Source of the DNA: Acidobacteriota bacterium
Lineage (GTDB): Bacteria > Acidobacteriota > Vicinamibacteria > Vicinamibacterales > CAVVIG01
Direction of reading: 5' to 3'
NCBI GenBank assembly: GCA_003222395.1
Contig: QHWB01000030.1
Coordinates: 368,593 to 432,592, forward strand
DNA length: 64,000 nucleotides
The translations under genes and the position numbers were made by a program. The notes under the pieces were generated by a model. That model saw nothing but the letters and a program-made list of their open reading frames with translations. It was not told the origin of the DNA and did no database searches. Positions 5,748 through 33,535 of the stretch are shown here, in pieces. The number at the start of each line of letters is the position of its first letter. Positions within the stretch are counted from its first letter, which is position 1.

Positions 5748-5783
5748 CGTGAAGCCTCTCGCGCGGCGTCGGTTTGCTTGGTG

Positions 5784-5789
5784 TATCTT
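5784..5789 (+). promoter_or_regulatory. Possible -10 element of the cytochrome operon
   Basis: TATCTT lies 23 bases before the chosen GTG start, inside the short divergent gap with trehalase. No convincing -35 was found, so this is a weak call. Confidence 0.25.
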
Positions 5790-5812
5790 ACGGCGACCGG
5801 AGCAGGTTTGAC

Positions 5813-8680: not shown

Positions 8681-8684
8681 TTCC

Positions 8685-10373: not shown

Positions 10374-10374
10374 C

Positions 10375-16207: not shown

Positions 16208-16247
16208 AAAAAGAAAAGCGGGCTGCGAGTTCGACCTCACAGCCCGC
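16208..16247 (-). terminator. Rho-independent terminator/attenuator between TonB receptor and GH3 genes
   Basis: On the minus strand, GCGGGCTG (16247-16240) pairs with CAGCCCGC (16225-16218) around a 14-base loop and is followed by TTTTCTTTTT (16217-16208). This is a textbook intrinsic terminator. It lies 24 bases after the receptor stop, and its T-run abuts the GH3 start codon. It should reduce GH3 transcription relative to the receptor. Confidence 0.85.
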
Positions 16248-16271
16248 CGAAGATGTGCGACCGTCAGCCGA

Positions 16272-19200
16272 TCAGAACAGCAGCTTGAACCCAATCTGCA
16301 TCTGCAGCGGGTCTCGTGTTCGCGTCGCCTGTCCGAAGCTGGTCGGAATCGTCGCGCTCGTTATTGCCGTCGCCTTGCTCGCGTCCGAGTTGTTCAGAGT
16401 TACGGTCGAGGGTCGGATGGTGGTCTCCATGCCCGCAAACATGAAGTTCGTGTTGTTGAAGATGTTGAAGATGTCCCAGCGAAGCTGCAGCTTCCTGTTG
16501 GCGCCAATTGGAAAGTTCTTGTAGAACGCCACGTCCGCCTGGAAATAGGCGGGGCCAGTGCAGTCGCCGCGCCTCGCTGAGCCGATGGTCCCGAGTTGGA
16601 ATCCATTCAAGGTATACGCACTCGGATTGATGATCTGCTCGGCGACCCCGCCGCTCGGTGTGCAAGCCTCGCTGGCGACGCGGTTCGGCATCTGGTTGTC
16701 GGTGTAGCCGGTTCCCGACGGTCCCCCGTTCAGGCCAGGAAGCGAGCCGGCGAACGCCGTGAGCGGCTGTCCGGTCGCGGCGCCGACGATCGTCGCCACT
16801 TCCCAGTCCCCTAACACACCGCGCACAGCAGACGATCGGCCCTCGAGGTTCGGCAGCAGCCAAATGAGGGACGCGTTGAAGATGTGCGTGCGGCCAGTCT
16901 CGGGACGGCCCCAATCAAGATCGGGATTCTGATTGTCGACCGTCGAATTCCCCTGAGCGGGAGCGCCGCCGCTGTCAGTCAGGTTCAGATTCGATCGCGA
17001 GCGCGACAGAGTGTACGACGTCTGGAACTGCGACCCGCGGCCGAACCGGCTGACGAACTGGGTCTGCAGCGAGTGATACGTCGATCTGCCGTTGTGATCC
17101 CAGATCCCGATGTTGTTGTTGCCGAACACGCCGAATTGCCGCAGTTCGGCGTTGGCTGGAGTGGTGACGACGTATTCGAGCCGATCGTCGATGCCGTTGT
17201 GGTTGATGTCACCGCTGAGAACCTGGTTCGCCACATGGGTCTTCAGGAGGTTGTATCCATAGTTGGCGACGTAACCGACTTCAATCGTCGTGTTGCGCCA
17301 GACCTCGTGCTGGAGCATCACGTTCCACTGCCAATTGTTGGGCGTCCGCTCGTTGACTTCGCGGCCGCGTTGCGGCGCGCCCAGCGTCGTGCCGAAGCAG
17401 CCGTCACATGGCTCGGCCGTCGTATCGAGCTTGCGAATCCCGTTCAGCGTGCTGACGAACGGCGGGTTCGTGGCGATGCTGAGCACGGGACTGAGCCGCT
17501 CGCGCAGAAAGAATTGTCCGACGCCCGCGCGAAGCGCAGTCTTCCCATCTCCTGACAGATCCCACGCCACGCCGATGCGCGGAGCGATGTTGTTCAGATC
17601 CTGATTCATCAGCGAACGGTTCGGTCCATCCGCTCCGCCCTTGGCGCCGGCCTGCTTGCACCAGTTCGTCCCCGGTGGCTGCAGCAACCCATTGCACGGA
17701 TCGGCGCCGAGCGCCGGATTGAACAATTCGGGCACAAAGCTCGTGAGCTTGTTGTCCGTGGTGTACGGATTGAAGAACATCGAATACCGCACGCCGTAAT
17801 CGAGCGTCACACGCCTTGACGCCTGCCACGAATCAGCGGCATAGAACTCGACATCGCGCCACCGCTGCTGTGCCGACCGGCTGGTCGATGCTTCGGAGAA
17901 ACCCCACGTCATGTCCCGAAGGAGGAAATCGGCGAGCACGTTCCCGGTGTTCGATCCCCAGCCGTTGACACCGGCGGATCCCCAGAACCGCGAGTTCATG
18001 TCCGATCCGTTGCCGTCGGTGTCCTCGTTCTTCCGGCTGTCCGGCAGCGTCGCCAGCGCGCCGACCTTCACCAGGTGCTTGCCGAACACCTTGCTGTAGT
18101 CGTCCTTGACGATGAAGAGATCCTGGTTGTTGAGGAACGGCGCCTCGTTCCACAACGGTCCATAGCCTTGGCCGCCCCAGAAGACCGGGTGACTTGTCTG
18201 GGCCCCGTACTGTTTCGCACTCAACGGAAACACCGGCTGGAACGCGCCGAGAATCTGATCGTCGAGACCGGGATCCGTACCACCGCGCGTGATGATGATC
18301 TTGTTCGCCGAGTACGAAAACTGAAGGCTGTTCGTACCGTTCGTTCCCAGGCTCTGGTTGAGTGATGCGACGAACGACCGGCTTGGCTGGTCCCAGTTCG
18401 AATCCACTGCTGGGAACGGATCGTCGCCCCAGAGGTTCGACTGGACGTTCGGCGCGTTGTTCTTCCACGTATCGTGGGTGTACCGCACCAGCAGTCGGCT
18501 CGCCTGCGAGATCGTCCAGTCGGCGCGGAAGCTTTGCTGGTTGTAGCGGATCGGCGAAACCACCGACGTGACCCAGTTGTTGCAGCTTCCGGCGGCCGGC
18601 GTGACGTTGGGAAGCGGATAGAGCTTCAAATACAGCTGTCCGGCCGGGCTGAGTCGATTCGCGGGAATGCGGTTTCCTGGAAACGGTTCCCCACTAAGCG
18701 GATCGACCGGAATGGGCGGCGAGCAGCCCGCGATCCGCGCCCCGCTGAAGTCTCCGTTGCGCTCGGCTTCGGTCGGCACGAACGCAGTACGCGCCGTCCC
18801 ACGATCCTCCAGGTTCCACTCGACGTTGCCGAAAAAGTGCAGCTTGTCCTTGATCAAAGGACCGCCAAACGTCGCGCCGAAATCGTTCCGCCGCAGTTTC
18901 TCCTTCGGCTGGTCGGCTTTCTCGAGGAAGTAGTTCTTCTTGTTCAGCGCGTCGTTGCGGCCGGAGTAGAACACGCTCCCGTTGAACCGGTTGGTGCCGC
19001 CGCGCGTGACGATGTTGATTTGGGCGCCGCCGGCGCCGCCGAACTCTGGTCCGTAGCTGTTGCGCAGGATCTTGAACTCTTCGATCGCTTCGAGCGACGG
19101 ATACACGAGGATCGTGCGGTTCGAACCGACGTCGTTGTTGTTCGCGCCGTCCACGGTCCACATGTTCGCCGTGACGTCGCTGCCGCTCACCGAGAGATCG

Positions 19201-19733
19201 GATCCGCCGAGCAAACCTTTGTCCTTGACGTTGAGGAAGTCGGGAGCGCTGACGCCCGGCATCAGCGTCGCGAGCTGCAGGAAATTCCGGCCGTTCAGCG
19301 GCAGCTCGCGCACCATCTCGCCGGTGACGACGCCCGAGACGTCGCCGCCGATCGTTTTCACCGGCGCGCTGGAGGCTTCGACGTTGACCACCTCACTGAG
19401 CTGACCGGTGCCGAGCTCGAAATCGATTCCGAGATCGTCGGCGACACGGAGCACCACGCCGGTGCGCGATCCGGCCTTGAAGCCTTGCAATTCCGCCGCG
19501 ACCTTGTAGCGGCCGACGGGCAAATCCGGCACCGAGTACACGCCAGCGGAGTTCGTGACGACGGTGCGCGAGAGACCGGTATCCTCGTTCGATACCGTGA
19601 CGGTTGCGCCGGGCAGCACCGCCTGCGTGGCATCTCTCACGGTGCCGCGAATGCTGCCGGTGGATCGCTGTGCGTGAGCAGGAGCAGCGAAGAAGATCGA
19701 CGAAACGAGCAGGACCAGGACCGGCTTCCGCAT
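16272..19733 (-). CDS. TonB-dependent receptor, Oar-like, complete
   Basis: 1153 residues. The order is: signal peptide (VLVLLVSSIFFAAPAHA), carboxypeptidase-regulatory-like beta-sandwich (residues ~24-105; GSIRGTVRDATQAVLPGATV), plug domain (~130-240, with ELPLNGRNFLQLATLMPGV and QINIVTRGGTNRFNGSVFY), then a long beta-barrel ending in GFKLLF, with the terminal Phe used for outer-membrane assembly. Proteins of this type import glycans or peptides with TonB energy. The GH3 gene downstream suggests a glucoside or oligosaccharide substrate. It is transcribed from a strong promoter at 19779-19807 that carries a possible ROK operator. It is the same family as the partial receptor at the left edge, but the visible segments are clearly different in sequence. 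Confidence 0.95.
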   Translation of the reverse strand: MRKPVLVLLVSSIFFAAPAHAQRSTGSIRGTVRDATQAVLPGATVTVSNEDTGLSRTVVTNSAGVYSVPDLPVGRYKVAAELQGFKAGSRTGVVLRVADDLGIDFELGTGQLSEVVNVEASSAPVKTIGGDVSGVVTGEMVRELPLNGRNFLQLATLMPGVSAPDFLNVKDKGLLGGSDLSVSGSDVTANMWTVDGANNNDVGSNRTILVYPSLEAIEEFKILRNSYGPEFGGAGGAQINIVTRGGTNRFNGSVFYSGRNDALNKKNYFLEKADQPKEKLRRNDFGATFGGPLIKDKLHFFGNVEWNLEDRGTARTAFVPTEAERNGDFSGARIAGCSPPIPVDPLSGEPFPGNRIPANRLSPAGQLYLKLYPLPNVTPAAGSCNNWVTSVVSPIRYNQQSFRADWTISQASRLLVRYTHDTWKNNAPNVQSNLWGDDPFPAVDSNWDQPSRSFVASLNQSLGTNGTNSLQFSYSANKIIITRGGTDPGLDDQILGAFQPVFPLSAKQYGAQTSHPVFWGGQGYGPLWNEAPFLNNQDLFIVKDDYSKVFGKHLVKVGALATLPDSRKNEDTDGNGSDMNSRFWGSAGVNGWGSNTGNVLADFLLRDMTWGFSEASTSRSAQQRWRDVEFYAADSWQASRRVTLDYGVRYSMFFNPYTTDNKLTSFVPELFNPALGADPCNGLLQPPGTNWCKQAGAKGGADGPNRSLMNQDLNNIAPRIGVAWDLSGDGKTALRAGVGQFFLRERLSPVLSIATNPPFVSTLNGIRKLDTTAEPCDGCFGTTLGAPQRGREVNERTPNNWQWNVMLQHEVWRNTTIEVGYVANYGYNLLKTHVANQVLSGDINHNGIDDRLEYVVTTPANAELRQFGVFGNNNIGIWDHNGRSTYHSLQTQFVSRFGRGSQFQTSYTLSRSRSNLNLTDSGGAPAQGNSTVDNQNPDLDWGRPETGRTHIFNASLIWLLPNLEGRSSAVRGVLGDWEVATIVGAATGQPLTAFAGSLPGLNGGPSGTGYTDNQMPNRVASEACTPSGGVAEQIINPSAYTLNGFQLGTIGSARRGDCTGPAYFQADVAFYKNFPIGANRKLQLRWDIFNIFNNTNFMFAGMETTIRPSTVTLNNSDASKATAITSATIPTSFGQATRTRDPLQMQIGFKLLF

Positions 19734-19755
19734 GCGTGGGCGCCTCCCTGAGCTT

Positions 19756-19777
19756 CCTAAAACTACTTAAGAAAGTG
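19756..19777. promoter_or_regulatory. Candidate ROK-type operator at the TonB receptor promoter
   Basis: A 22-bp site reading ...AAAAC...TTAAGAAAGTG on the plus strand. It sits across the expected transcription start of the receptor gene and matches two sites at the ROK/GH2 locus (29147-29168 at 14 of 22 positions, 29191-29212 at 15 of 22). The position would suit repression. Regulator assignment is inference. Confidence 0.45.
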
Positions 19778-19778
19778 C

Positions 19779-19807
19779 TATTATGATCACCGCCGACCGA
19801 CTGTCAA
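19779..19807 (-). promoter_or_regulatory. Sigma-70-like promoter of the TonB receptor gene
   Basis: On the minus strand a perfect -35 TTGACA (19807-19802) is followed after 17 bases by ATAATA (19784-19779), or after 16 bases by CATAAT. This is the best promoter in the window, with start of transcription expected near 19772, about 39 bases before the ATG. Confidence 0.75.
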
Positions 19808-19816
19808 GCGCTTTTG

Positions 19817-21976
19817 GTGGACCCCCTGGAACAATGCCCCTTCCGCGTGCAGCGATCGACCGCACACACCATCGCCGTCGTCGTCGGCCTCGCGGTCCTG
19901 GCCGGTTCCTGCCGCTGGGTTCGGTCGGAACCGGGCGTCCGTCGCCACGCCGGTCTTGACGTTCTCCTTATTACTATCGACACGCTCCGCGCCGACGCCG
20001 TCGGAGCGTACGGAAACAGCCGCGCCAGCACGCCGTCGATCGATCGCCTCGCTGCGGCCGGCGTCCGGTTCGCCGACGCACACGCGCACAACGTCACCAC
20101 GCTCGCCTCGCACGCGAACATTCTGTCGGGCCGGTACCCGACCGACCACGGCGTGCGCGACAACTCCGGCTTTCGTTTTCCGGCGACGATCGACACGCTG
20201 GCGACGGTGCTGAAGGCGCGCGGCTATCGCACGGGCGCGTTCGTCAGCGCGTATCCGCTCGACTCACGATTCGGCCTCGACCGCGGGTTCGACGCGTACG
20301 ACGACAGCTTCGTCGACGCTCAGCCCCGGCCCGCGTTTCTCGAGCAGGAGCGGCGCGGCGCCGAAACCGTCGCGCTCGCGAAGCGGTGGCTCGATGCCGG
20401 CGCGAAGGATCAGCCGTACTTTTGCTGGGTGCACCTGTACGAGCCGCATTTCCCCTACGCACCCCCTGAACCATTCGCGTCCCGGTTTCTTGCCGACCCG
20501 TACCTCGGCGAAGTTGCTGCCGTCGACGCGGCGATCGCTCCGCTGCTCGAGTCGATCGCGGCGGCACGCAATGGCCGGCAACCGCTGGTGGTGCTCACGG
20601 CCGATCACGGCGAATCGCTCGGCGAGCACGGAGAGACCACGCATGGAATCTTCGCCTACGAGGCGACGCTCAGCGTTCCGCTCATCGTGTTTCAGCCGGA
20701 ACTCTTCAAAGCCCGCGTCGTAAAGGAGCCCGCACGGCATGTCGACGTCTTCCCGACGATTCTCGACGCGCTCGCGATTCGCGTGCCCGACGCGCTGGCC
20801 GGTCGCAGCCTGCTGACGCTCGCGGCCGGCGTTTCCGCTGACAGCGCGCACACCGACAGGTCGTCGCAGCCAATCTATTTCGAAGCGCTGTCGGCAAATC
20901 TGAACCGTGGATGGGCGCCGCTAGGCGGTCTCATTCGAGATCGAATGAAGTACATCGACCTCCCGATTCCCGAGTTGTACGACCTTCAACGCGACTCGAA
21001 CGAGCAGCAGAACCTCGCAGACTCTCAGCCGCAGCGCGTCGAAGAAATGCGCGGCCTCCTCAATACCTTTCGCGCGAGCGATCGGCGGGCGGAACGCCGG
21101 CCCGAGGCTGCAGACGCACTCGAGCGTCTGCACAGCGTCGGCTATACGAGCGCAGTCGTTGCGCCCACGACGCGGTACACCGAGGCCGACGATCCGAAGC
21201 GTCTCATCGGCCTGGATGCGATGCTGCAGGATGTCCTCCGCTTGTATCTCGCCGGCGATCTGCGGGCCGCGATCGCGCGCTGTCGCGAGCTCGTAGAACG
21301 CAGGCCGACGATGGCCGTCTCGCTGCTCGAGCTCGCGCATCTCGAACGCGAGAGCGGAAACCTGGCAGCCGGGATCGACGCGCTTCGCCGCGCCGCAGCG
21401 CTGACTGCCGGGGACGCGCAGACCATGTCGCTGCTCGCCGCGTATTTGACGCAGGCGGGGCGCGCGCGCGAAGCCGTCGACCTGCTGGAGCCGTACAGCC
21501 GGCGCGAGCCGGCGGATCCGCAAGTGCTCACATCGCGCGCCATGGCGCTTGCGGCCGCCGGCCGCACCTCCGATGCGCTATCGACGCTCGAGCAGGCGCG
21601 GCGCCACGATCCGACCAATGCGATGCTGCATGTGGAGTCGGGCACGGTCTACCTCATGGCCGGCGATCGCGCCCACGCGCGCGAGGAATTCCAGGCGGCG
21701 CTCGCGCTCAATCCGGCCGCCGCGCGCGCACACAGCTCGCTCGGAGTGATCGCGTCGGAAGACGGACGCACCGATGAAGCCATCGCGCAATGGAGAGACG
21801 CGCTGAAAGCCGATCCGCGCGAAGCGGGAAAGCTGTTCGCATTCACCGAATTTTTACGGCAGAAAGGTCGCGACGCCGAGGCGCGCCCGTTTCTCGAGCT
21901 GTTCGTCGCTTCGGCATCTCAACAGCAGTACGCGCGTGAGCTCGAGCGCGCTCGCGAGTGGCTTGGCCGTCCGTAG
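19817..21976 (+). CDS. Exported sulfatase/alkaline-phosphatase-fold protein with C-terminal TPR
   Basis: 719 residues. Metal-site motifs of the alkaline phosphatase superfamily are clear: ITIDTLRADAVGAYG and LTADHGESLGEHG. At the nucleophile position it reads NVTTLASHANILSGRYP: a Thr-Leu-x-Ser-His pattern instead of C/S-x-P-x-R, so it cannot be matured to formylglycine and is not a classical sulfatase. Phosphatase, phosphodiesterase or transferase chemistry is more likely. TPR repeats fill residues ~465-715. The N-terminus has a hydrophobic helix ending in VLAGSC, a possible lipobox. GTG 19817 is used; GTG 19847 would give a shorter, more usual signal sequence. The gene is divergent from the TonB receptor. 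Its stop codon TAG lies within the left arm of a dispersed palindromic repeat. Confidence 0.87.
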   Translation: MDPLEQCPFRVQRSTAHTIAVVVGLAVLAGSCRWVRSEPGVRRHAGLDVLLITIDTLRADAVGAYGNSRASTPSIDRLAAAGVRFADAHAHNVTTLASHANILSGRYPTDHGVRDNSGFRFPATIDTLATVLKARGYRTGAFVSAYPLDSRFGLDRGFDAYDDSFVDAQPRPAFLEQERRGAETVALAKRWLDAGAKDQPYFCWVHLYEPHFPYAPPEPFASRFLADPYLGEVAAVDAAIAPLLESIAAARNGRQPLVVLTADHGESLGEHGETTHGIFAYEATLSVPLIVFQPELFKARVVKEPARHVDVFPTILDALAIRVPDALAGRSLLTLAAGVSADSAHTDRSSQPIYFEALSANLNRGWAPLGGLIRDRMKYIDLPIPELYDLQRDSNEQQNLADSQPQRVEEMRGLLNTFRASDRRAERRPEAADALERLHSVGYTSAVVAPTTRYTEADDPKRLIGLDAMLQDVLRLYLAGDLRAAIARCRELVERRPTMAVSLLELAHLERESGNLAAGIDALRRAAALTAGDAQTMSLLAAYLTQAGRAREAVDLLEPYSRREPADPQVLTSRAMALAAAGRTSDALSTLEQARRHDPTNAMLHVESGTVYLMAGDRAHAREEFQAALALNPAAARAHSSLGVIASEDGRTDEAIAQWRDALKADPREAGKLFAFTEFLRQKGRDAEARPFLELFVASASQQQYARELERAREWLGRP

Positions 21977-22043
21977 CGCGAGGCTTTCAGCCGAGCGGCA
22001 GACGCTCGCCTGAAAGGCGCTCGCCTGAAAGGCTCGCGCTACG
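21972..22043. repeat. REP-like palindromic repeat, copy 1
   Basis: CGTAGCGCGAGGCTTTCAG (21972-21990) is repeated inverted with one mismatch at 22025-22043. Between the arms lies a 15-bp direct repeat, CGCTCGCCTGAAAGG, twice (22003-22017 and 22018-22032). The core GCGCGAGGCTT is shared with the element at 27821-27885. The left arm supplies the stop codon of the preceding gene. Confidence 0.7.
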
Positions 22044-22093
22044 TATCGGGCCACAGACGGTTTGCTGAGATAGAATCGCCGCACAACTGAACG

Positions 22094-24316
22094 ATGTTTG
22101 CTCCGTTCTCCCGGATCTGGATCGCATGCGCAGTGGTGATGGCCATCGGCGCGTCCTCGTCCGCCGCACAGAACGCACCCGATCCTCTCGCTGCCGTTGA
22201 CGCTGAAATCTCCGCCGCCGAGGACAGCCTGAGAGCCGGCGAGCTCGAGATCGCGGAGAGCCGTTATCGCTCCGCGCTCGCGGCCGGCTGGATGCTGATG
22301 GGCGCGCTCGACGCCGCCGACGGCCGGCTCGCCGACGCGCGCGACGCGTTCCTGCGGGCGTCGACCTCCGCCTTCGACGCGCGCTCCGCGCTGCAATCGT
22401 TGGCGCTCATCCACTTGCGGATGGGCGACGCCGCGAGCGCTGTCACTCTTCTCACTCGTCTGAGCGGCACGAGTCCCGGAGACGTACCGAATCGGCGGCT
22501 GCTGGCGCAGGCGCTCGCGGCCAATGGTCAGGCCGCGGAGGCGGTTCAGGAGCTGGAGGAAACCGCGCACGCGCGGCCGGACGATCCGGAGATCAAGTAC
22601 ACCCTCGCGTCGGGGTACCTGCGGCTGAAGCAAATCGATTCCGCGGAGCGTCTCTTCGGCGAGGTAGCGACCGCACGGCCACTGCCCGAGACGTACGTCC
22701 TGATCGGTCGAACGTACCGCGATGCCGGCCAATACGATCGAGCGCGGCGCGCCCTCGCCGTCGCGCTGCAGAAGGATCCGCGCGTCCGCCGCGCGCATTA
22801 CTACCTTGGGACGATCGCGATCATCGAGGACGGTGTGCTCCGGCTCGACGAGGCGATCGCCGAGTTCCAGCAGGAGCTGCGGCTCGTGCCGACCGATCCG
22901 GCGACGAACCTGCGCCTCGGGATTGCGCTGGTCGAAGCGCGTCGAGACGACGCTGCGCTGCCCGCGCTCGAAGCCGCTGTTCGTACGGACCCTCCGCCGC
23001 CTGAGGCCTTGTACTACCTTGGCCGCTGTCAGCTCGCGCTGGATCGGGCGGCGAGCGCGGTGACGTCGTTCCGGCGAGCGCTGGAGCTCGAAGCCGCGTC
23101 GCCGCGCATCGACAACGGACGGCTGCGAAGCGTCCACTATCAGCTCGCGCTCGCGCTGCAAAAGACCGGCGCAGCCGAGGAAGCCGCGGCGCATTTCGCC
23201 GAAGCCGAACGCTTCTCGGCCAAACTGACGGCCACCGAGCGCCAGCGCCTCGGGCGGTATCTTGCCGACACTCAGGATCCCGCTGACATGATCGCCGCCT
23301 CGCCGGCCCTCGACGTCTCGCCGTTGTCCGGCCTCACTCCGGACCAGCGCGCCGACGTGGCGCGTCGTACCAGGACCGCGCTCGCGCGCGCCTGCCTGAA
23401 CCTTGGCGTGATGCACGCGCAGAAGCAGCGATTTACAAGGGCCGCCGAGTTCTTCGATCAGGCCGTCACGGCCGACGCCGATTTTCCCCAGGCGCAGTAC
23501 TCGCTGGGCGTCGCCTACTTCAACTCGCAGCAGTACGCCAGGGCCGTTCGGCCGCTCGCGCGCGCGCTCGACGCCGATCGTGCGAGCACGCTGGTCAGGC
23601 GCATGCTCGCGATCGCATATCTCAACACCGAGGCGTACGGACAATCGGCCGCGCTCCTCGCCGACGATCCGCAGCGCGACGCCGATTCATCGCTGCAGTA
23701 CGCGTATGGCCTCGCGCTCGTCCGGAGCGGCCGCGCCGCGGACGCGGAGGCGATTTTCTCCCGTCTGCTCGGCGAGCATGCGAACAGCCCTGAAGTCAGC
23801 GTCGTGCTCGGCCACGTGTACGCGCAGCAGGGCAACTACGACGCGGCGATCGAGGCGCTCCAGCGCGCGCTGCAGTTGAGGCGCGACGTTGCCGACGCGA
23901 ACAGCGCGCTCGGCCTGATCTATCTGAAGCAGGGAAAGCTGTCCGACGCGGACGCCGCGCTGCGCGCCGAGCTCACGCACCATCCGGCCGATGTCAAGGC
24001 GCGGCACACGCTGGCGACCGTCCTCGATCTCGAGGGACGCGCGGATCAGGCGCTCGTCGAAGCGCGGACGGTCGTCAAAGCGAATCCGGAGTTCGCCGAC
24101 GCGCGGTACCTCCTCGGAAAACTCCTGCTCGCGGGCGGCGCGCTCGACGAGGCGGCGATGCACCTCGAAGCGGCCGCCCGGACCGCGCCGCAGGACGCGA
24201 ACATCCATTACCAGCTGGCGCGGGCGTACGAAAAGATCGGACGCGCCGAGCTCGCTGAAAAGGAATTCGCGATCTATCGCGACCTCAAAGACAAACAGCG
24301 GGGTAAGACGCCGTGA
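22094..24316 (+). CDS. Exported TPR protein
   Basis: 740 residues. The signal peptide is [17 protein letters not shown]. The rest is alpha-helical and built of about 15 TPR-like repeats in two blocks (residues ~50-380 and ~425-735), for example [29 protein letters not shown] and [22 protein letters not shown]-type units. No enzyme motif is present. TPR superhelices bind other proteins, so it is probably a periplasmic scaffold. It is the first of three genes joined by stop-start overlaps: its TGA (24314-24316) shares the A with the ATG of the next gene. A REP-like element separates it from the phosphatase-fold gene upstream, and the two may be separately expressed. Confidence 0.88.
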
Positions 24317-25185
24317 TGCGGCGAAGGCTTGCGCCGGCGCTGCTGCTCTCGATCGCCGTCGCGCATCCTGTCGGCGCGGGCGTGTCCGCCCAGGCTGCAG
24401 ATGCCGCAACGCCGTCGGTCCGCGAACTGCTGCAGACGGCGCGCGGTCAGATGCAGCGCGGCGACCGCTCGGGCGCGCTCGAATCGCTGGGGCGCGCGCG
24501 CGTCCTCGCGCCCAATTCCGAAGAAGTCCTCAGCGCGTTCGCGCAGGTGGCGCTCGCGGCGCGGATGCTCGCGCCCGCGATCGCGACGCTCGATGCCCTG
24601 ACGCGCATGTGCTCGACCGTCTCGCAGTATCACTACCTGCTCGGCGTCGCGTTGATGGAGGGCGGCGACATGCCCGCGGCGATCGAATCGCTGCAGCAGG
24701 CGGATCGGCTCGAGCCCGAACGGTCGTTGACGCTGATGGCGCTCGGCCTCGCCGAGAACAATCGCAAGCAGTACGCCGATGCGAAGCGTGCGCTCGTGCA
24801 CGCGCTCGATCTCGAGCCGGAAAACATCGACGCCCTGGCCGCGCTTGCGGAAGCCGAAGCGGGCCTCGACGAGCTCGCGCCGGCGGAAGATCACGCGCGC
24901 CGCGCGCTCCGACGCGCCGTGGCGCATCCGACGGCGAACCTCGTGATGGGCATCGTCTCGATGAAACGCGAACGCTACGCAGAGGCGCGCGAGGCGCTGG
25001 ACAAGGCGATCGCGGCGAACCCGGATTCGCCGGCCGCGCATTATCAATTGAGCCTCGCGTACGCGCGACTCGGCGACGAGGCGAACGCAAAGCGACACGT
25101 GCAGTTGTACCAGCAGAAACTGCGCGAGGCGGAAGAACGGATGAAGACACTGCGCGCCGCCACGTCCAGCGAAAGATTGCGGTAA
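24316..25185 (+). CDS. Small exported TPR protein
   Basis: 289 residues. The start ATG 24316 overlaps the previous stop as TGATG, indicating translational coupling. A signal peptide ([21 protein letters not shown]) is followed by about six TPR units (residues ~35-270) such as [20 protein letters not shown] and [20 protein letters not shown]. The C-terminus is charged ([15 protein letters not shown]). It probably works with its TPR neighbour and the CRTAC1 protein encoded next; its TAA overlaps that gene's ATG as TAATG. Confidence 0.87.
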
Positions 25186-26840
25186 TGCGATCCGTTGTCG
25201 CACTCGCCGGCGCTGTGGCTGCGGGCGCCCTGGCGCTCGCGGCGTCGCAGCCGGTCCTGTTTCGCGACATCACCGCTGAAGCGGGGATTACCTTTCAGCA
25301 TCACGCGGCGCCCGAGAAGAAATACATCGTCGAATCGATGAGCGGCGGCGTCGCGCTGTTCGATTACGACCGCGACGGGCTGCTCGACATCTACTTCGTC
25401 GATTCGCTGACCGTTGCGACGGCGAAGGATCCGACGGCGGCGCGCAGCGCGTTGTATCGCAACCTCGGGAACGGCAAATTCGCCGACGTCACCGACAAGT
25501 CGGGGCTCGCCCACCCCGGCTGGGGCATGGGCGTGTGCACCGCCGACGTGGACGGCGACGGCTGGGAAGATCTGTACGTGACGGGACTCGGGAAAAACCG
25601 CTTGTATCGCAACAATCACGACGGCACGTTCACCGACATCGCGGAGCAGGCGGGTGTTGCCGGCAGCGGATGGTCCGCCGGCTGCGGCTTCGCCGATTAC
25701 GATCGGGACGGCCGGCTCGATTTGTTCGTCAGCCGCTACGTCAAAATCGATCTCGATCATCTGCCGGAGTTCGGCAGGGACAAGACGTGCGAGTACCGCG
25801 GCATCGCCGTGCAGTGCGGCCCGCGGGGACTCACGGGCGAATCGGATTTCCTGTTTCACAACGACGGGAACGGCCGCTTCACCGAGGTCTCGAAACAGGC
25901 GGGCGTCTCCGATCCGAATGGGTATTTCGGGCTGGGCGTCGCATGGTTCGATTACAACGGCGACCTCTGGCCGGACCTGTACGTCGCCAACGACTCGACG
26001 GCAAACTTTCTTTACCGCAACAACGGCGACGGCACGTTCAAGGAAGTCGCGTTTCCCACCGGCGTCGCGGTGAGCGAGGACGGCGCCGAGCAGGGCAGCA
26101 TGGGCGTGGCGCTCGGCGATTATCTGAACACCGGCCGGCTGAGCCTGTTCGTCACGAATTTCTCCGAGGAGTACAACGATCTCTACCGCCACGACGGCGA
26201 TCACTTCACCGATGTGTCGTTCGGCTCGAAAACAGCTCCGAGCAGCCTTCCGTTCGTCGGCTGGGGCACGGGGTTTTTCGACTACGACAACGACGGACTG
26301 CTCGATCTCATCGTCGTGAACGGCCACGTGTACCCGCAGCTCGACAAAGTGCGGCTTGGCGCGTCAGCCGGTTATCGTCAGCGCAAGCTCCTCTATCACA
26401 ATCGCGGCGACGGGACGTTCGACGAGGTCGCCGCGCAGTACGGCCGCGTGATGATCGACGAGCGCGTCGGCCGAGGGCTCGCCGTGGGCGATCTCGACAA
26501 CGACGGTCGTCTGGACATCGTGATCAACAACCTCGATGGCGTCCCCGAAGTGCTGCACAACGAGCTGGCCGATCGCGGCAACTGGCTCCTGGTGAAGCTG
26601 ACCGGCCCGCGCGGCAACACCGATGCGATCGGGGCGGTCGTGACGGCGCGCGCCGGCGCGGTGACGGAAACGCGCGTCGTCCAGAGCGGAACGAGCTACA
26701 TCTCTCAGAACGACATGCGCCTGCACTTCGGGCTTGGATCGGCTGCGCAGGTGGAGTTGCTCGACGTCCGGTGGCCCGACGGCACGACGTCGAAGATGAC
26801 GAACGTGAAAGCGAATCAGATTGTGGCGATCAAGCGATAG
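25185..26840 (+). CDS. CRTAC1-family exported beta-propeller protein (FG-GAP/VCBS + ASPIC/UnbV)
   Basis: 551 residues. The start is ATG 25185, overlapping the preceding stop; a longer frame extends upstream but is a shadow of the TPR gene. The signal peptide is [17 protein letters not shown]. It is followed by [13 protein letters not shown]-like family opening residues, blades with calcium-loop motifs ([54 protein letters not shown]), and the C-terminal ASPIC/UnbV domain ([32 protein letters not shown]). It is the paralogue of the protein encoded at 8685-10373 and likewise sits at the end or middle of a TPR gene set. The function is unknown; surface or periplasmic binding is inferred. Confidence 0.92.
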
Positions 26841-26868
26841 GCGACCCGACCCACCCGACCTACCTGAC
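26841..26868. repeat. Short C-rich repetitive stretch between convergent genes
   Basis: Imperfect GACC/CACC/TACC units between the stops of the CRTAC1 and deacetylase genes. The minus strand has four to five closely spaced G-runs. No stem with a T-run was found, so a terminator is not supported. Confidence 0.35.
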
Positions 26869-27807
26869 CTAGTGCGTGCGCGCCCGCGCGAGATCCCTCC
26901 ACTTCACGAGCGTGAAGTTTTGTTTGCGCAGGAAGTCGCGGAATCGCCGGCTCTTCACGAGATCGAAGTCGGCCTGCCGCCATGCAGCGCCCCAGTTCGG
27001 ATGATCCCACGTCGCGCCGCGCATCTCGTCGTCGTCGTAGGCGAGATGGACGATGAGCTCGTACACACCGGCGGGCAACGGCGTCAGCAGCTTTTCGTAC
27101 GCGGCCGGCCACTCCGCCGCCGGCGCGCCGGGCGCGTCGAGCGAGATCACGCGGTCGACGAGCGCATCGGCCTGCGCCTGACCGGCCCACGGCGATCCAT
27201 CGCCGCCCGCGCGTTCGACCAGGAGCGGGAGGCCGTACGCGGATCCGAGGCGAAGGTAAACCTTCTGAAGCGCCGGCGATCGAAACAGCGTCGCCATGTG
27301 CGAATCGACATGTGTCGGGCGGATGCCAGCCGAGCGTGCCCGATCGATTTGGGCGCGCAGCTCGCGCTCGACCTGATCGGGCTGCGCGTGCGCGACGACT
27401 TCCGTCTCTTCGAGCGGCAGGTACCCGTCTTTGTCGAGTAGCGATCGAACCGCGTCGACAGGGCTGACCGGTCCCCACCGAAATCCGGTCCACTCGCTGT
27501 TCACAGCCAGATGAATGCCGAGATCGGCGTCGGGATGCTCGGCTGCGAAGCGCACGACTTCGGCAAACCACGGACAGGGCACGAGGATGCTCGACGAGGT
27601 GATCCAGTTTTTTTCGAGCGCCTCGAACGTGGCGCGATTGACAGAATGCGCCATGCCGAGATCGTCGGCATGGATGACGAGCAGCCGCGCGCTCGCCGGA
27701 TAGCCGAGCCGCTCCTGAACGCTCCGCGCGCCGTTCTGCGCGCCGACCGAGCTGGCCAGCAGCACGCCGATGCACGCGGGCGCCAGGCGTGAGATCCATC
27801 GCTCCAT
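26869..27807 (-). CDS. Secreted ChbG/HpnK (YdjC)-family carbohydrate deacetylase
   Basis: 312 residues. Family hallmarks are the metal-binding HADDLGMAHSVNRA near residue 46, LGIHLAVNSEW, and THVDSHMATLF. ChbG-type enzymes remove one acetyl group from chitooligosaccharides; others act on different N-acetyl sugars. Unlike E. coli ChbG, which is cytoplasmic, this protein begins with an apparent signal peptide (ISRLAPACIGVLLASSVGAQ). The start ATG 27807 has AGGAGA upstream, and the longer frame to 27888 runs into a palindromic repeat. Together with the GH2 exo-glucosaminidase across the ROK gene, the context suggests deacetylation and breakdown of chitin-derived oligosaccharides outside the cytoplasm. 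Confidence 0.85.
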   Translation of the reverse strand: MERWISRLAPACIGVLLASSVGAQNGARSVQERLGYPASARLLVIHADDLGMAHSVNRATFEALEKNWITSSSILVPCPWFAEVVRFAAEHPDADLGIHLAVNSEWTGFRWGPVSPVDAVRSLLDKDGYLPLEETEVVAHAQPDQVERELRAQIDRARSAGIRPTHVDSHMATLFRSPALQKVYLRLGSAYGLPLLVERAGGDGSPWAGQAQADALVDRVISLDAPGAPAAEWPAAYEKLLTPLPAGVYELIVHLAYDDDEMRGATWDHPNWGAAWRQADFDLVKSRRFRDFLRKQNFTLVKWRDLARARTH

Positions 27808-27820
27808 GTGCTCTCCTAAA

Positions 27821-27885
27821 CGCTCGGCTGCAGCCCTCGCGCTCCACGTCCGACCAACCGGAGCGCGAGGCTTCAACCCGAGCGA
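27821..27885. repeat. REP-like palindromic repeat, copy 2
   Basis: Two 25-base arms, CGCTCGGCTGCAGCCCTCGC... (27821-27845) and ...GAGCGCGAGGCTTCAACCCG... (27860-27884), pair at 20 of 25 positions around a 14-base loop. The right arm resembles the left arm of the repeat at 21972-21990 (GCGCGAGGCTT, then CCGAGCG). It separates the ROK gene from the deacetylase gene. Confidence 0.65.
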
Positions 27886-27900
27886 CACTGCCGCGCGCGT

Positions 27901-29142
27901 TCAGTCGGCGACGACGTCTTCTCTCAGCTGCTGCCGAAGCCGTTTGCGCGCTTCCATCGCCGCCACGAGCAGGCTTCCCCACAACGGCGCTTCTTTGTCG
28001 AGCTCGGACGGCACGATCGCGCCCGGCGTCGGCACGATGCGCGAGACGACGCGGCGCACGGCGTCGACCAGCTCGGGCGCCTGCGCGAACAACGCGCCGC
28101 CGAGCACGATCAGCGACGGATCGAGCACGATGCTCACGTTTGCCGCCGCGATGCCGATGAGCGTCGCCGTATCGTCGACGATCGCGCGGGCCGCCTGGTC
28201 GCCTGCCCGGGCGGCATCGAACAAATCGCGCACCCACCCGTCCACCGGCGCGTGATCGGACTGCGACCAGCGCGCCGCGATGGCTTTCAGGCCCGCCAGC
28301 GTTTCGAGACAGCCGCGCGCGCCGAAATCGGTGTCGACGAACTGCGGCCCCATGCACATCAGCGCGATTTCGCCCGCCATGAAGCGGCGGCCGTGATACA
28401 GCTCGCCGTTCACCACGACGCCGGCGCCGATTCCCGTGCCGACGGTAATGAACGCACAGGTATCGTGGCCGCGCGCGGCGCCGCGCCACCGTTCGCCGAC
28501 GACGGCGAGGTTCACGTCGTTTTCGACGACGACCGGTACCCCCAGCGACCGCCGCAGGATCTTCGCGATCGGCACCTGGGACCAGCCCTCGAGGTTCGGA
28601 GCGAACGCCACCACCACACCGCGGACGCGATCGACGACGCCGGGCGCGCCGGCCACGACGGCGAGCAACCGATTGGCTGGCACGCGCGAGTCGCTCAGCA
28701 GCTTGCGAAGATCGGCCGCAATCTGCGACAGCAGATCCGCCGGGGCGCAATCGGTCGGCGTCGCGACGACGCGCTGGCGGATCGGCTCACCTCGGAGGTC
28801 CGCAACCGCCAGCCGCGTCTTGGTCGGACCGATATCGATGCCGGCCACGAACCGGTGACGCGCGTTGAACTCCATGAACGTGGGACGGCGGCCGCCGCGC
28901 GACGGCGCAGCGCCGAGATCCTTGACGACGCCGCATCGGATCAGATACGCGCAGAGCGTTCCGACGGTCGGCGCCGACAGCCCGGTGGCGGCGATGACCT
29001 CGGTGCGCGTGAACGGCGCGGACTGCGCGATCGCGAAGGCGAGGACCCGATCGAGGTTGAGCGGCCGAAGATGTCGCGCGTGGCGTGCGCCGACATCCAC
29101 ATCGACCTGACGCTTCGCCACGCCGGACGCGTCGCGTGCCAT
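27901..29142 (-). CDS. ROK-family transcriptional regulator (NagC/XylR type)
   Basis: 413 residues. A winged helix-turn-helix lies at about 30-75 (FTRTEVIAATGLSAPTVGTL), followed by the ROK sugar-kinase-like fold: ATP-site-like GIDIGPTKTRLAVADL, ENDVNLAVVGE, and VGTGIGAGVVVNGELYHGRRFMAGEIAL. Typical ROK proteins bind zinc through a His in the AGExxH region and a CxCGxxGCxE cluster; here the His is Ala-Leu-like (AGEIALM) and only FGARGCLETL remains, so canonical zinc binding is probably lost. It likely senses glucosamine or a derivative and represses the neighbouring genes. It is divergent from the GH2 gene. A 22-bp motif next to its own start suggests autoregulation. Confidence 0.9.
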   Translation of the reverse strand: MARDASGVAKRQVDVDVGARHARHLRPLNLDRVLAFAIAQSAPFTRTEVIAATGLSAPTVGTLCAYLIRCGVVKDLGAAPSRGGRRPTFMEFNARHRFVAGIDIGPTKTRLAVADLRGEPIRQRVVATPTDCAPADLLSQIAADLRKLLSDSRVPANRLLAVVAGAPGVVDRVRGVVVAFAPNLEGWSQVPIAKILRRSLGVPVVVENDVNLAVVGERWRGAARGHDTCAFITVGTGIGAGVVVNGELYHGRRFMAGEIALMCMGPQFVDTDFGARGCLETLAGLKAIAARWSQSDHAPVDGWVRDLFDAARAGDQAARAIVDDTATLIGIAAANVSIVLDPSLIVLGGALFAQAPELVDAVRRVVSRIVPTPGAIVPSELDKEAPLWGSLLVAAMEARKRLRQQLREDVVAD

Positions 29143-29146
29143 GCTT

Positions 29147-29168
29147 TTGAAAACAGTCTATGAAAGTG
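29147..29168. promoter_or_regulatory. Candidate ROK operator next to the ROK start
   Basis: Matches the site at 19756-19777 at 14 of 22 positions, including AAAAC at positions 4-8 and GAAAGTG at the end. It lies 5-26 bases upstream of the ROK start codon on the transcribed side, a position suited to autorepression. Confidence 0.4.
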
Positions 29169-29184
29169 TGCGTCGCGCGGGCAA

Positions 29185-29212
29185 CATAATAGTAAAGTCA
29201 TTTAACAAAGTG
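29185..29212 (+). promoter_or_regulatory. GH2 promoter -10 and overlapping candidate ROK operator
   Basis: CATAAT (29185-29190) is a good -10, the same hexamer as in the TonB receptor promoter; the -35 is weak. The motif at 29191-29212 (AAAG....TTAACAAAGTG) lies directly downstream, over the expected start of transcription, and matches the receptor site at 15 of 22 positions. Confidence 0.45.
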
Positions 29213-29249
29213 CGGCGGCGCACGCTCGCGTCCCTCGGAGATGCCCCTC

Positions 29250-31877
29250 ATGCGTCAGATCCTGCTCCGCGTCGGGCTGGCGGCACTTACCGTCGGCCTC
29301 GCGGCCTCGACATCCGTCGCCGAGCCGCTTCGCATCCCGCTGGACGCCGGTTGGGCCATTCAGTCCTCGGCGAGCGTAAAGCTGCACGGCGAGGCGATTT
29401 CGCGCCCCGGTTTCCAGACCCAGGGGTGGCACGCTGCGAGCGTACCGGGAACGATCGTCGGCGCGCTGGTCGAGAGCGGACGGTATCCAGACCCTTACAC
29501 GGCGATGAACCTCCGCGCCATTCCCGGAACGACGTACCCGATCGGCGAGCAGTTCGCGCTGCTGCCGATGCCGTCCGACAGCCCGTACAGCGTGTCGTGG
29601 TGGTACCGGCGGGAATTCGATCTGCCGGCTGCGACGCGCGACCGGACGATCTGGCTGAATCTCGACGGGATCAACTACCGCGCGAACATCTGGGTGAACG
29701 GCGTCCGCATCGCGACGAGCGACGGCGTGGCCGGCGCCTTTCGCCGATACGAGTTCGACATCACGCGCGTCGCGCGCCGGAGCGCGACCAACGCTCTCGC
29801 CGTCGAGGTGTTCGCCCCGGCACCGCGCGATCTGGCGATTACGTGGGTCGACTGGAACCCGACGCCGCCCGACAAGAACATGGGGCTGTGGGGCGACGCC
29901 TACGTGCGGGACAGCGGACCCGCCGCCCTCCGGCATCCGCACGTCATCACCAGGCTCGATGTGCCGTCGCTCGACGTGGCGCATCTCACGGTGACCGCGG
30001 AGGTGTGGAACGCGACCGACTCGCCGGTCAACGCCACCGTTCGGGGCGCGATCGAAGCGCTGCGATTCTCGCAGCCCGTCGCGCTCGCGCCACGAGAGCG
30101 GAAGACTGTGCGGTTCTTACCGGCCGACACGCCGCAGCTGAACGTACAACGTCCTCGGTTGTGGTGGCCGTATCGTATGGGCGAGCAGCAGCAGTACTCG
30201 CTGTCGATCGCCGTCGACGTCAACGGCACCGAATCGGACCGCGCGGACGTGCGATTCGGCATCAACGAGTTCACCTCGGAGCTCACGGCAAAAGGGCACC
30301 GGCTCTTTCGCGTGAACGGCAAGCCGATTCTGATCCGCGGCGGCGGCTGGGCCTCAGACATGCTGCTGCGTCCCAAATCGCCGGCGCGTCTCGAAGCCGA
30401 ATTCCGCTACGTCAAGGAAATGGGTCTGAACACCATCAGGACGGAGGGCAAGCTCGAGACCGACGCCTTTTACGACCTCGCCGATCGCGAAGGCATTCTC
30501 ATCATGCCCGGATGGTGCTGCTGCGATCAGTGGGAGCTGTGGGACAAGTGGGACGCGGAGAACTACACCGCGGGTCCCGCCTCGCTGCGCGATCAGCTGC
30601 TGCGGCTTCGAAACCATCCGAGCATCTTCGTCTGGCTGAACGGCAGCGACAAACCGCCGATCGCGCCGATCGAGCAGCGGTATCTCGACATCGAGCGCGA
30701 GTTGGAGTGGTCGCGTCCGACGCTGTCGAGCGCGGCCGAGGCGCCCGGACCGGTGAGCGGGCCAAGCGGAGTGAAGATGCGCGGACCGTACGACTATGTC
30801 CCGCCGTCGTACTGGCTCACCGACACCGGGCACGGCGGCGCGTTCGGCTTCTCTCCCGAGATTGGCCCTGGCGCGGCGGTCCCACCGATCGAGAGCCTGA
30901 CGCGGATGCTTCCGCCCGATCACCTGTGGCCAATCGACGAGGTCTGGAACTTCCACGCGGGCGGCGGCCAGTTCAAGGACATCAAGGTGTTCACGTCGGC
31001 GGTCGAGGGACGGTACGGAAAAGCCGATGGCGTCGTCGATTTCGCGCGCAAGGCGCAGGCGCTCGCCTACGAGGCCGAGCGCGCCATGTTCGAAGGCTAC
31101 GCTCGCAACAAGTACACATCGACCGGTGTGATTCAGTGGATGCTGAACAACGCGTGGCCGTCGATGATCTGGCATCTGTACGACTATTACCTGCGTCCCG
31201 GCGGCGGCTACTACGGTACGAAGAAGGCGTGCGAGCCGCTGCACGTGCAGTACTCCTACGACGATCGCTCGGTGGTCGTCGTCAACGACACGCCCGCCGA
31301 AGTGAAAGGACTGAAGGTCACCGCCACGGTGCTCGGCCTCGACCTCGCGCAAAGGTTCACTCGCGAGGCGAGCATCGACATCAGCGCGGACGGCGTCGGC
31401 CGTGTCTTCGACATTCCGGCCATCGCCGGTCTGACGACGACGTACTTCGTTCGACTGGCGCTGCACGATTCGGGTGGACGTCTCGTCAGCCGCAACTTCT
31501 ACTGGCTGTCGACAGAGGACGACGAGCTCGATTGGCAGAAGACCGAGTGGTACTACACGCCGACGAAGCGTCATGCGGACCTCACGGCGCTCGCGCAGCT
31601 GCCCGAGACCACGCTGTCGGTGTCGCCGCCGGCCGACGGCGCCGGCACGACTGCGATCCGCGTCACGGTCGCGAACACCGGCCGCGCGCTCGCCTTTCAG
31701 GTGCACCTCGAGCTGATCGATCCGGCGACCGGAGCTGAGATCCTTCCCGTGTACTGGGACGACAACTACTTCGAGCTGCTTCCTGGCGAAGCGCGGAGAA
31801 TTAGCGTGTCGACCGCTCGCACGGCGGTTCGCCCCCGCGTGACCGCCGAAGCCTGGAACAGTGCGCCGGCGCGATGA
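29250..31877 (+). CDS. csxA: Exo-beta-D-glucosaminidase (GH2, CsxA type)
   Basis: 875 residues. It releases glucosamine from the non-reducing end of chitosan oligosaccharides. Diagnostic features of the CsxA subfamily are PPDKNMGLWGD in the sugar-binding domain, GSD instead of the GH2 G-N-E at the acid/base position (WLNGSDKPP, Asp ~467; Amycolatopsis CsxA uses Asp469), GPYDYVPPSYWLTDT, and the nucleophile Glu in FSPEIGPG (~537; Glu541 in CsxA). WMLNNAWPSMIWHLYDYYL is also typical. A signal peptide (LLRVGLAALTVGLAASTSVA) shows export. ATG 29250 is chosen because CGGAG lies nine bases upstream; ATG 29241 is nearly as good. The gene overlaps the permease gene by ATGA, so the two are co-translated. 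It is divergent from the ROK regulator. Confidence 0.9.
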   Translation: MRQILLRVGLAALTVGLAASTSVAEPLRIPLDAGWAIQSSASVKLHGEAISRPGFQTQGWHAASVPGTIVGALVESGRYPDPYTAMNLRAIPGTTYPIGEQFALLPMPSDSPYSVSWWYRREFDLPAATRDRTIWLNLDGINYRANIWVNGVRIATSDGVAGAFRRYEFDITRVARRSATNALAVEVFAPAPRDLAITWVDWNPTPPDKNMGLWGDAYVRDSGPAALRHPHVITRLDVPSLDVAHLTVTAEVWNATDSPVNATVRGAIEALRFSQPVALAPRERKTVRFLPADTPQLNVQRPRLWWPYRMGEQQQYSLSIAVDVNGTESDRADVRFGINEFTSELTAKGHRLFRVNGKPILIRGGGWASDMLLRPKSPARLEAEFRYVKEMGLNTIRTEGKLETDAFYDLADREGILIMPGWCCCDQWELWDKWDAENYTAGPASLRDQLLRLRNHPSIFVWLNGSDKPPIAPIEQRYLDIERELEWSRPTLSSAAEAPGPVSGPSGVKMRGPYDYVPPSYWLTDTGHGGAFGFSPEIGPGAAVPPIESLTRMLPPDHLWPIDEVWNFHAGGGQFKDIKVFTSAVEGRYGKADGVVDFARKAQALAYEAERAMFEGYARNKYTSTGVIQWMLNNAWPSMIWHLYDYYLRPGGGYYGTKKACEPLHVQYSYDDRSVVVVNDTPAEVKGLKVTATVLGLDLAQRFTREASIDISADGVGRVFDIPAIAGLTTTYFVRLALHDSGGRLVSRNFYWLSTEDDELDWQKTEWYYTPTKRHADLTALAQLPETTLSVSPPADGAGTTAIRVTVANTGRALAFQVHLELIDPATGAEILPVYWDDNYFELLPGEARRISVSTARTAVRPRVTAEAWNSAPAR

Positions 31878-33226
31878 ACACGAACGATACCCATGTCGTT
31901 GCGGATGCTCCGCGCCTGCGGCGCGCGCTGACGCTGTGGGACCTCGTGTTCTACGGCATCGTCCTCATTCAACCCGTCGCTCCGATGGGCATCTTCGGAG
32001 TCGTCAGCCTCGAAGCGCGCGGCCACGTCGTCACGACGATCCTGATCGGCTTGTGCGCGATGCTCCTCACGGCGGTGAGCTACGGACGGATGGCGCGCGT
32101 GTATCCGAGCGCCGGCTCGGCGTTCACCTACGTCGGCCGCGAGCTCAACGCAGGGCTCGGGTACGTGACCGGGTGGAGCATGGTGATGGACTACGTGCTG
32201 AACCCGATCATCTGCACGATCTGGTGCAGCAAGGCGGCCATGAACGTGCTGCCCGGCGTACCGTATCCGGCGTGGGTCGCGTTGTTCGCGGTCCTCTTCA
32301 CGGCGTTGAACCTGCGCGGTGTGAAAGCGAGCGCACGGACGAACGAGGTTCTTGCGGTGGCGATGTTCGTGGTGCTCGCCCTGTTTCTCGCGTCCGGCGC
32401 GCGCTATCTGATTGGCCTGCACCTCGGGCGCCGCGAGCTGCTGCTGCCGTTCTACAACCGCGAGACCTTCTCGTGGCCGGTCGTCCTCACCGGCGCGTCG
32501 ATCGCGTCGCTCACCTACATCGGCTTCGACGGCATCTCGACGCTCTCGGAAGAAGTAGAAAACCCCCGCCGCAACATCATGCTGGCGACGGTGCTGACGT
32601 GCCTGATCATCGGTGTGCTTGCCTCCGTCCAGGTCTACGTCGCCCAGCTGGTATGGGGCGACTGGAGAGGTTTTCCCGACGTCGACACCGCGTTCGTGTA
32701 CGTCGCGGGCAAGGCGGGCGGCGCCGTGATGTTCCAGGTACTGAACGTCACGCTGCTCGTGGCGAACTTCGGCTCGGGCGCTGGATCGCATCTCGGCGCC
32801 GCGCGGCTCCTCTACGGAATGGGACGCGAGAACGCGCTGCCCTCACGATTCTTCGGCGTCATCGATCCGAGGCGCAACATTCCGCGCAACAACGTCCTTC
32901 TGGTCGGCGCGGTGGCGCTCGCCGGCGGCCTGACGCTCACCTATCAGCTCGGCGCCGAGATGCTGAATTTCGGCGCCTTCATCGCGTTCATGGGGGTCAA
33001 TCTCGCCGCGCTCACGCACTACTGGGTGCGCGCTCCGCGAAAGCGGGTTCTCGATTTCGTCGCGCCGTTTCTCGGATTCGTCATTTGTTTATACCTGTGG
33101 CTCAGTCTGCGCTGGCCCGCGAAACTCGCCGGCGGCATCTGGCTCGGCGCCGGCGTGCTGTACGGCGCCATCAAGACGCGCGGCTTCCGCACCAATCTCG
33201 TATCGTTCGAAGCCGCATCGGAGTGA
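31874..33226 (+). CDS. APC-superfamily permease
   Basis: 450 residues, about 12 transmembrane helices. The N-terminal signature of APC amino-acid/polyamine transporters is visible: LTLWDLVFYGIVLIQPVAPMGIFGVV, then YPSAGSAFTYVGRELN and GFDGISTLSEEVENPRRN. Family members usually carry amino acids or amines by proton symport or exchange. The start codon overlaps the GH2 stop (ATGA), so expression is tied to exo-glucosaminidase. Import of the released glucosamine, an amino sugar, is a reasonable inference, but it is not typical of the family; an unrelated amine or amino acid remains possible. No gene follows on this strand for 300 bases. Confidence 0.88.
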   Translation: MNTNDTHVVADAPRLRRALTLWDLVFYGIVLIQPVAPMGIFGVVSLEARGHVVTTILIGLCAMLLTAVSYGRMARVYPSAGSAFTYVGRELNAGLGYVTGWSMVMDYVLNPIICTIWCSKAAMNVLPGVPYPAWVALFAVLFTALNLRGVKASARTNEVLAVAMFVVLALFLASGARYLIGLHLGRRELLLPFYNRETFSWPVVLTGASIASLTYIGFDGISTLSEEVENPRRNIMLATVLTCLIIGVLASVQVYVAQLVWGDWRGFPDVDTAFVYVAGKAGGAVMFQVLNVTLLVANFGSGAGSHLGAARLLYGMGRENALPSRFFGVIDPRRNIPRNNVLLVGAVALAGGLTLTYQLGAEMLNFGAFIAFMGVNLAALTHYWVRAPRKRVLDFVAPFLGFVICLYLWLSLRWPAKLAGGIWLGAGVLYGAIKTRGFRTNLVSFEAASE

Positions 33227-33535
33227 GCTCGGTGGGTCGACGAGCGTCTTAAGAAGGCCTTGCGGTGCCTCGTTTCTTATTGGTCCTCGTGGCAGGCGAA
33301 AACCCGCACGCTGAGAGAAAAGTCGCCGTGTCGAACGACTAACGCCGATTTCCGGATTCGCGACATCGACGCGAAGTGACCTACTCTTCTCACCTTGCCG
33401 ACCATTGTCTGGCCCGCGTCCTGCCGGCGAGCCACGCACGGTTCTTGCAGTTGCCTGCGCGATCAAGCACTTCGGTCTGCCACTACCGGCAGATTCGTTG
33501 CTGTCGCGGCCGTCCGCGCCGGCGTGTCGTCACTC
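33227..33535. other. Leader region before the giant gene
   Basis: About 309 bases without a supported gene. A frame continuous with the giant gene is open from TTG 33395, but the translation before 33536 looks non-coding. No clear promoter, riboswitch or ribosome binding site was recognised. The sequence is richer in A+T than its surroundings around 33245-33330, as expected for a control region. Confidence 0.35.

Follow-up and report, generated by a model that had tools for sequence, protein, structure and literature searches.

The 64-kb stretch of contig QHWB01000030.1 analysed here (the window; all positions given are window positions) belongs to an Acidobacteriota genome of 7.74 Mb in 118 contigs with ~66% GC, labelled G000. 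It carries three copies of a 27-bp inverted repeat, CACTTnGTTAA-N5-TTAACnAAGTG, which are very probably operators of the ROK-family regulator encoded at 27901-29142, through which this protein would repress a TonB-dependent receptor and a glycoside hydrolase family 3 (GH3) gene, its own gene with that of a YdjC-like deacetylase, and a GH2 gene with that of a permease. The identity of the dyads as operators is strongly supported by sequence comparison, and from the same material we infer binding by the ROK protein of the window, repression rather than activation, and the nature of the inducer.

Three copies of a 27-bp dyad

The first-pass annotation of this DNA had read a 22-bp motif at 19756-19777 (CCTAAAACTACTTAAGAAAGTG), 29147-29168 (TTGAAAACAGTCTATGAAAGTG) and 29191-29212 (AGTAAAGTCATTTAACAAAGTG), the second and third sites matching the first at 14/22 and 15/22 positions. 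Both the positions and the identities were reproduced (pairwise 14, 15 and 12 of 22). The motif length was corrected, since each 22-mer has the whole right arm and the spacer of a 27-bp dyad but lacks part of its left arm. In relatives of the f10 family the dyad forms a clear inverted repeat, and for this reason the possibility that the 22-mers are direct repeats (AAA...AAAGTG with a 13-bp step), considered first, was dropped. In 19 sites from other genomes, the dyad has a T-rich left half and an A-rich right half.

Site 1 (AGCTTCCTAAA-ACTAC-TTAAGAAAGTG, 19751-19777, plus strand) lies directly downstream of the -10 hexamer of the TonB receptor promoter, and site 3 (ATAATAGTAAA-GTCAT-TTAACAAAGTG, 29186-29212, plus strand) overlaps the probable -10 hexamer of the GH2 gene. 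Site 2 (TGCTTTTGAAA-ACAGT-CTATGAAAGTG, 29142-29168, plus strand) abuts the ROK start codon. The proposal that the three sites represent one motif held in full for sites 1 and 3, with site 2 belonging to the same motif as a clearly weaker copy. A short GC hairpin followed by TTTGTTAAAT is found on the minus strand at 29210-29223, over the edge of site 3, and may be there by chance.

Frequency of the motif in the genome

The degenerate pattern KAAARYHRYYTAWSAAAGTG occurred in the 7.74-Mb genome at exactly three sites with no mismatches, at none with one or two mismatches and at 13 with three, as against 38 matches in all for the reversed-pattern control; within the window, three matches were observed compared with 0.06 expected from shuffles. 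This test is circular, because the pattern was derived from the three sites themselves. A looser pattern, CTTNNTTMANNNNNTKAANNAAG, was unspecific (202 matches per strand, fewer than the 245 of the control) and was rejected.

A non-circular test was provided by symmetrised weight matrices built solely from the sites of other genomes, with which 1.645 Mb of G000 (21% of the genome, ~1.64 M positions) was scanned, and whole-genome profile searches served as a complement. When the matrix contained f10 sites only, sites 1 and 3 came out on top in the window and its flanks (21.8 and 20.0 bits, the next 11.2), and they ranked first and second in the 1.645 Mb (21.4 and 19.2 bits, the next 18.7). Addition of f6 and further f10 sites gave scores of 25.8 and 20.8 for sites 1 and 3, with 15.8 for the next, and addition of further foreign sites gave 29.2 and 27.3, with 14.6 for the next. 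Site 2 ranked 62, 28 and 9 of 1.64 M in the three scans, with a local shuffle P of 0.0002-0.007. In a search of the whole genome with profile R2, also made from foreign sites only, site 3 was the sole match at E<=10; site 1 was not reported, probably owing to the prefilter (150/374 candidates scored), and the ranks were therefore taken from the matrix scan. Profile R3, the training set of which included the G000 and G061 sites concerned, matched in whole-genome searches only the TonB and ROK|GH2 sites of these two genomes, i.e. sites 1 and 3 alone in G000.

By pattern count, foreign matrices and profiles, the motif does not occur at chance frequency. An explanation by mere likeness of AT-rich promoter DNA in a genome of 66% GC can draw on the 70 22-mers in 1.64 Mb that match site 1 at >=14/22, which make the pairwise likeness alone unremarkable; it is nevertheless most improbable, as sites 1 and 3 take the two top ranks in the scans with foreign matrices, P values are 0.0003-0.0007 when the intergenic DNA itself is shuffled, and the position is conserved in the related genomes and loci G017, G061, L245, L246 and L248.

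Position of the probable operators at the promoters

The TonB receptor promoter, TTGACA-N16-CATAAT on the minus strand (19780-19807), matches the consensus at 11 of 12 positions, and its hexamers are retained in G017, G061, G049 and G067. The hexamer CATAAT, which had been noticed beside two of the sites, is the -10 element of this promoter in one case and the probable GH2 -10 (29185-29190) in the other; no -35 for GH2 passed the promoter scan. The usual order in the TonB promoters inspected was TTGACA, a spacer of ~16-18 bp, a -10-like hexamer and the dyad, the last following immediately after the -10 in G000, G017 and G061 and within ~15 bp in more distant genomes. A dyad at or after the -10 suggests steric repression, which we infer from this arrangement. 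The ROK protein could instead be an activator, or could repress only itself and GH2 while the TonB copy has another role, given that ROK proteins act either way (PMC9599254); this is quite unlikely, however, because the operator position at the TonB promoters suits repression and the TonB promoter of the window is already near consensus.

Conservation in related genomes

In seven genomes of genus g35 in f10 (f10/g35), another family of the same order, which encode ROK homologues with 35-41% identity, the sequence CACTTwGTTmA-N5-TTAACwAAGTG was found at the ROK start independently of the window sites, although the TonB, GH2 and YdjC genes do not adjoin there. Closer to the window, the motif is kept at the orthologous TonB|sulfatase and/or ROK|GH2 promoters of five related genomes, so that the conservation upstream of orthologous ROK, GH2 and TonB genes expected for a common operator was indeed observed. 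Out-of-sample P values, obtained by scoring the best site in dinucleotide shuffles of each intergenic region, were 0.0003-0.0013 at TonB|sulfatase in G000, G017, G061 and AA29 (locus L248), at ROK|GH2 in G000, G061, RBC046 (L245) and BD_ISSM bin 32 (L246), and at the ROK start in AA29 and G076. The operator occupies the same TonB promoter position as site 1 in G017 and G061, and equivalents of site 3 are present in G061, L245 and L246. The ROK|GH2 region of L246 has two sites, one towards each gene, like the window; in that of G061, a second site near ROK was not found. A second operator-like dyad (13-17 bits) is located in G061 at L104:7072-7098, overlapping the -35 region of the TonB promoter.

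The TonB orthologues of G049 and G067 have kept the promoter, and the operator motif was not found there; no ROK orthologue was detected in either genome at E<=1e-40. In distant genomes, the motif occurs at TonB receptors (G055, G087, G082, G081), at PIG-L deacetylases (G082, G043) and, in G031, between an SNF-type symporter and a PcRGLX-like gene. Open reading frames (ORFs) beside the operators of L130, L254, L089 and L258, first taken for unknown proteins, are in fact antisense to TonB receptors.

The ROK regulator

The 413-aa ROK protein (minus strand) matches the Pfam domain ROK (PF00480, 1.6e-51) over residues 100-389. Its N-terminal winged helix-turn-helix could be aligned (TRTEVIAATGLSAPTVGTL...GGRRP) and includes the GRRP/GRPP wing, and from residue 37 onward the protein matches the Mlc and Lmo0178 chains. 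The DxGGT phosphate motif of the kinases is replaced by DIGPTKT, and the protein is therefore read as a regulator rather than a sugar kinase. The zinc motif CxCGxxGCxE, which is frequent among ROK proteins but which the Pfam domain does not require, is replaced as well, by DTDFGARGCLE; by domain and helix-turn-helix the protein is classed as a ROK, in a subgroup devoid of the zinc motif.

The operator-bearing ROKs, which have lost the DxGGT motif too, form one clade, split from the zinc-motif ROKs with support of 1.0 in a small tree of 26 sequences. D[FY]GxxG[CY][LF]E takes the place of the zinc motif in all members of the clade where the region was aligned, while it is intact in the outgroup ROKs, and the recognition helix S[AP]P[TA]V[GS] is common to the operator-bearing proteins. 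The evidence leans slightly towards a broader proposal, that a zinc-motif-less ROK subfamily spread over several families of Vicinamibacteria-related Acidobacteriota controls TonB glycan loci via one operator conserved in at least five families, its effector site working without the usual zinc. If so, sugar uptake across the outer membrane in Acidobacteriota would be switched by a regulator of the ROK type.

The tie between motif and ROK is supported by the fact that distant relatives carry the motif where their ROK gene starts, by its absence from the TonB promoters of the two ROK-less genomes and by the common recognition helix. At the same time, several observations weigh against the assignment of the three sites to this regulator. 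Sites 1 and 3 have imperfect left arms, and site 2 by itself would fall below a genome-wide threshold. No convincing operator was found at the ROK gene in G161 (ROK 63%), G068 (57%) and AA32 (65%), and the best site at the G068 TonB promoter reaches only 8.0 bits (P 0.007). Moreover, the 87%-complete assembly of G017 has the TonB operator and lacks a close ROK, the contig ending inside the gene beside the expected ROK place. The three genomes with a ROK and no clear operator, together with G017, would fit a motif that serves another regulator, with the ROK gene merely its target or neighbour. This is unlikely: the ROK clade is the recurrent gene where the motif occurs, across families f1, f5, f6, f10 and f15 and named Acidobacteria metagenome-assembled genomes; the f10/g35 motif stays at the ROK start even though TonB, GH2 and YdjC do not adjoin it; and a dyad of T-rich and A-rich halves is typical of ROK operators (PMC4856308). 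The regulon under one ROK regulator proposed by the first-pass annotation is thus supported at the level of sequence, the weak site 2 and these three genomes marking its limits.

Genes of the three probable units

The TonB-dependent receptor (16272-19733, minus strand; OMP_b-brl_4 with CarboxypepD_reg, Pfam 7.9e-165) is overlapped at its end by the GH3 beta-glycosidase gene (13880-16294, minus strand; Pfam GH3 5.1e-68), probably as an operon. A probable operon is also formed by ROK and, 12 bp behind it, the YdjC/ChbG-like carbohydrate deacetylase gene (26869-27888, minus strand; Pfam YdjC 3.1e-53; NCBIfam carbohydrate deacetylase 1.2e-38, below its cut-off). The GH2 protein (29241-31877, plus strand) is a predicted CsxA-type exo-beta-D-glucosaminidase: phmmer aligned it with CsxA (2vzs) over residues 26-875 at 5.5e-195, including the GSD and FxxE catalytic regions, where D469 and E541 are assigned as catalytic. 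Its end is overlapped by the gene of an amino-acid/polyamine-type permease (31874-33226, plus strand; Pfam AA_permease_2 1.2e-30), again a probable operon; the permease adjoins GH2 in G061 and G009 and lies in the same locus in L245. The two overlaps and the 12-bp distance make three transcription units likely, TonB-GH3, ROK-YdjC and GH2-permease. TonB receptor matches number 187 in the 7.7-Mb genome, and among 30 TonB loci examined the operator is present in one, that of the window.

The functional unit originally suggested, i.e. glucosamine release, deacetylation and uptake, stood for the CsxA-type GH2, YdjC and the TonB receptor. It did not stand for GH3, which looks like a BglX-type beta-glucosidase and not a glucosaminidase, its best NCBIfam models being exo-beta-1,3/1,6-glucosidase and BglX (both below cut-off); for this reason, a mixed glycan may serve as substrate.

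The two regulated regions are separated by divergent sulfatase-TPR, TPR and FG-GAP/UnbV_ASPIC genes (19814-26840, plus strand; Pfam), kept with the cluster and syntenic in G017, G049, L247 and L248. Such genes (19814-26840 and 5774-13926) recur beside TonB receptors with synteny across families. Elsewhere in the window, a 2845-aa ORF (51250-59787) with GT2-like, glucoamylase-like and GH94 domains resembles the cyclic beta-1,2-glucan synthase NdvB, and a 4009-aa ORF (33395-45424) with ~15 HYR domains, bacterial Ig domains and FG-GAP repeats is probably a giant surface or secreted protein.

Proposed mechanism

A ROK dimer would read two CACTTnGTTAA half-sites that face each other as inverted copies, 5 bp apart. 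Since the operator of the TonB-GH3 and GH2-permease promoters lies on the -10 or immediately behind it and would cover the start-point region, bound ROK would block initiation there. Through the weaker site 2 at the start of its own gene, ROK would autoregulate the ROK-YdjC unit. The inducer would be a sugar taken up from a glucosamine-containing glycan, probably glucosamine, a chitosan oligomer or chitobiose; it would release ROK, which would lead to the joint induction of uptake (TonB), exo-cleavage (GH2, GH3) and deacetylation (YdjC). This scheme shows how a regulator beside one enzyme may be joined to a receptor 9 kb away. The regulation of TonB receptors in Acidobacteriota is little charted, and the literature we searched yielded nothing on ROK or TonB regulation for this phylum; a searchable operator, one regulator and one candidate substrate class make the control of an outer-membrane uptake locus directly testable.

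Comparison with known systems

CsnR of Streptomyces lividans is a ROK repressor of chitosanase genes, which are derepressed by its deletion or by operator mutation and induced by chitosan oligosaccharides (PMC3048496). The window system is similar in having a ROK-family regulator and a palindromic operator at promoters of genes for the breakdown of glucosamine polymers (PMC3048496), whereas the CsnR site, CCTCTTCTGGTAGGAAACTTTCCTATCAGT (PMC4856308), has another core and spacing, and the CsnR locus belongs to a Gram-positive host and lacks a TonB receptor. The half-site of RokB from Streptomyces coelicolor, TTTGTTC/GAACAAA, resembles the CTTnGTTmA of the window, and the RokB site at PnovH extends over a start codon (PMC4856308), which site 2 comes close to doing; however, 11 bp separate TTTGTTC from GAACAAA, so that the half-sites are ~4 bp further apart than in the window dyad, and the RokB regulon hints at amino-acid metabolism, unlike the window genes. 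ChiR of Thermotoga maritima, a ROK regulator of genes for chitobiose uptake and hydrolysis, loses its DNA binding in the presence of chitobiose (PMC3750489). It shares with the window the combination of a ROK regulator with uptake and hydrolysis genes for an amino-sugar glycan, but its locus has an ABC transporter and the nagAB operon and no TonB receptor. NagR of Bifidobacterium is likewise a ROK protein with a palindromic operator and a regulon for the uptake of amino-sugar glycans and for glycosidases; unlike the window system, it governs a Gram-positive global regulon of 29 genes and responds to N-acetylglucosamine and its phosphates (PMC9599254). The kind of system is thus already known from ROK sugar regulons such as those of CsnR, NagC and ChiR, and the novelty lies in the regulator subgroup, in its operator and in the link of this subgroup to an acidobacterial TonB receptor locus.

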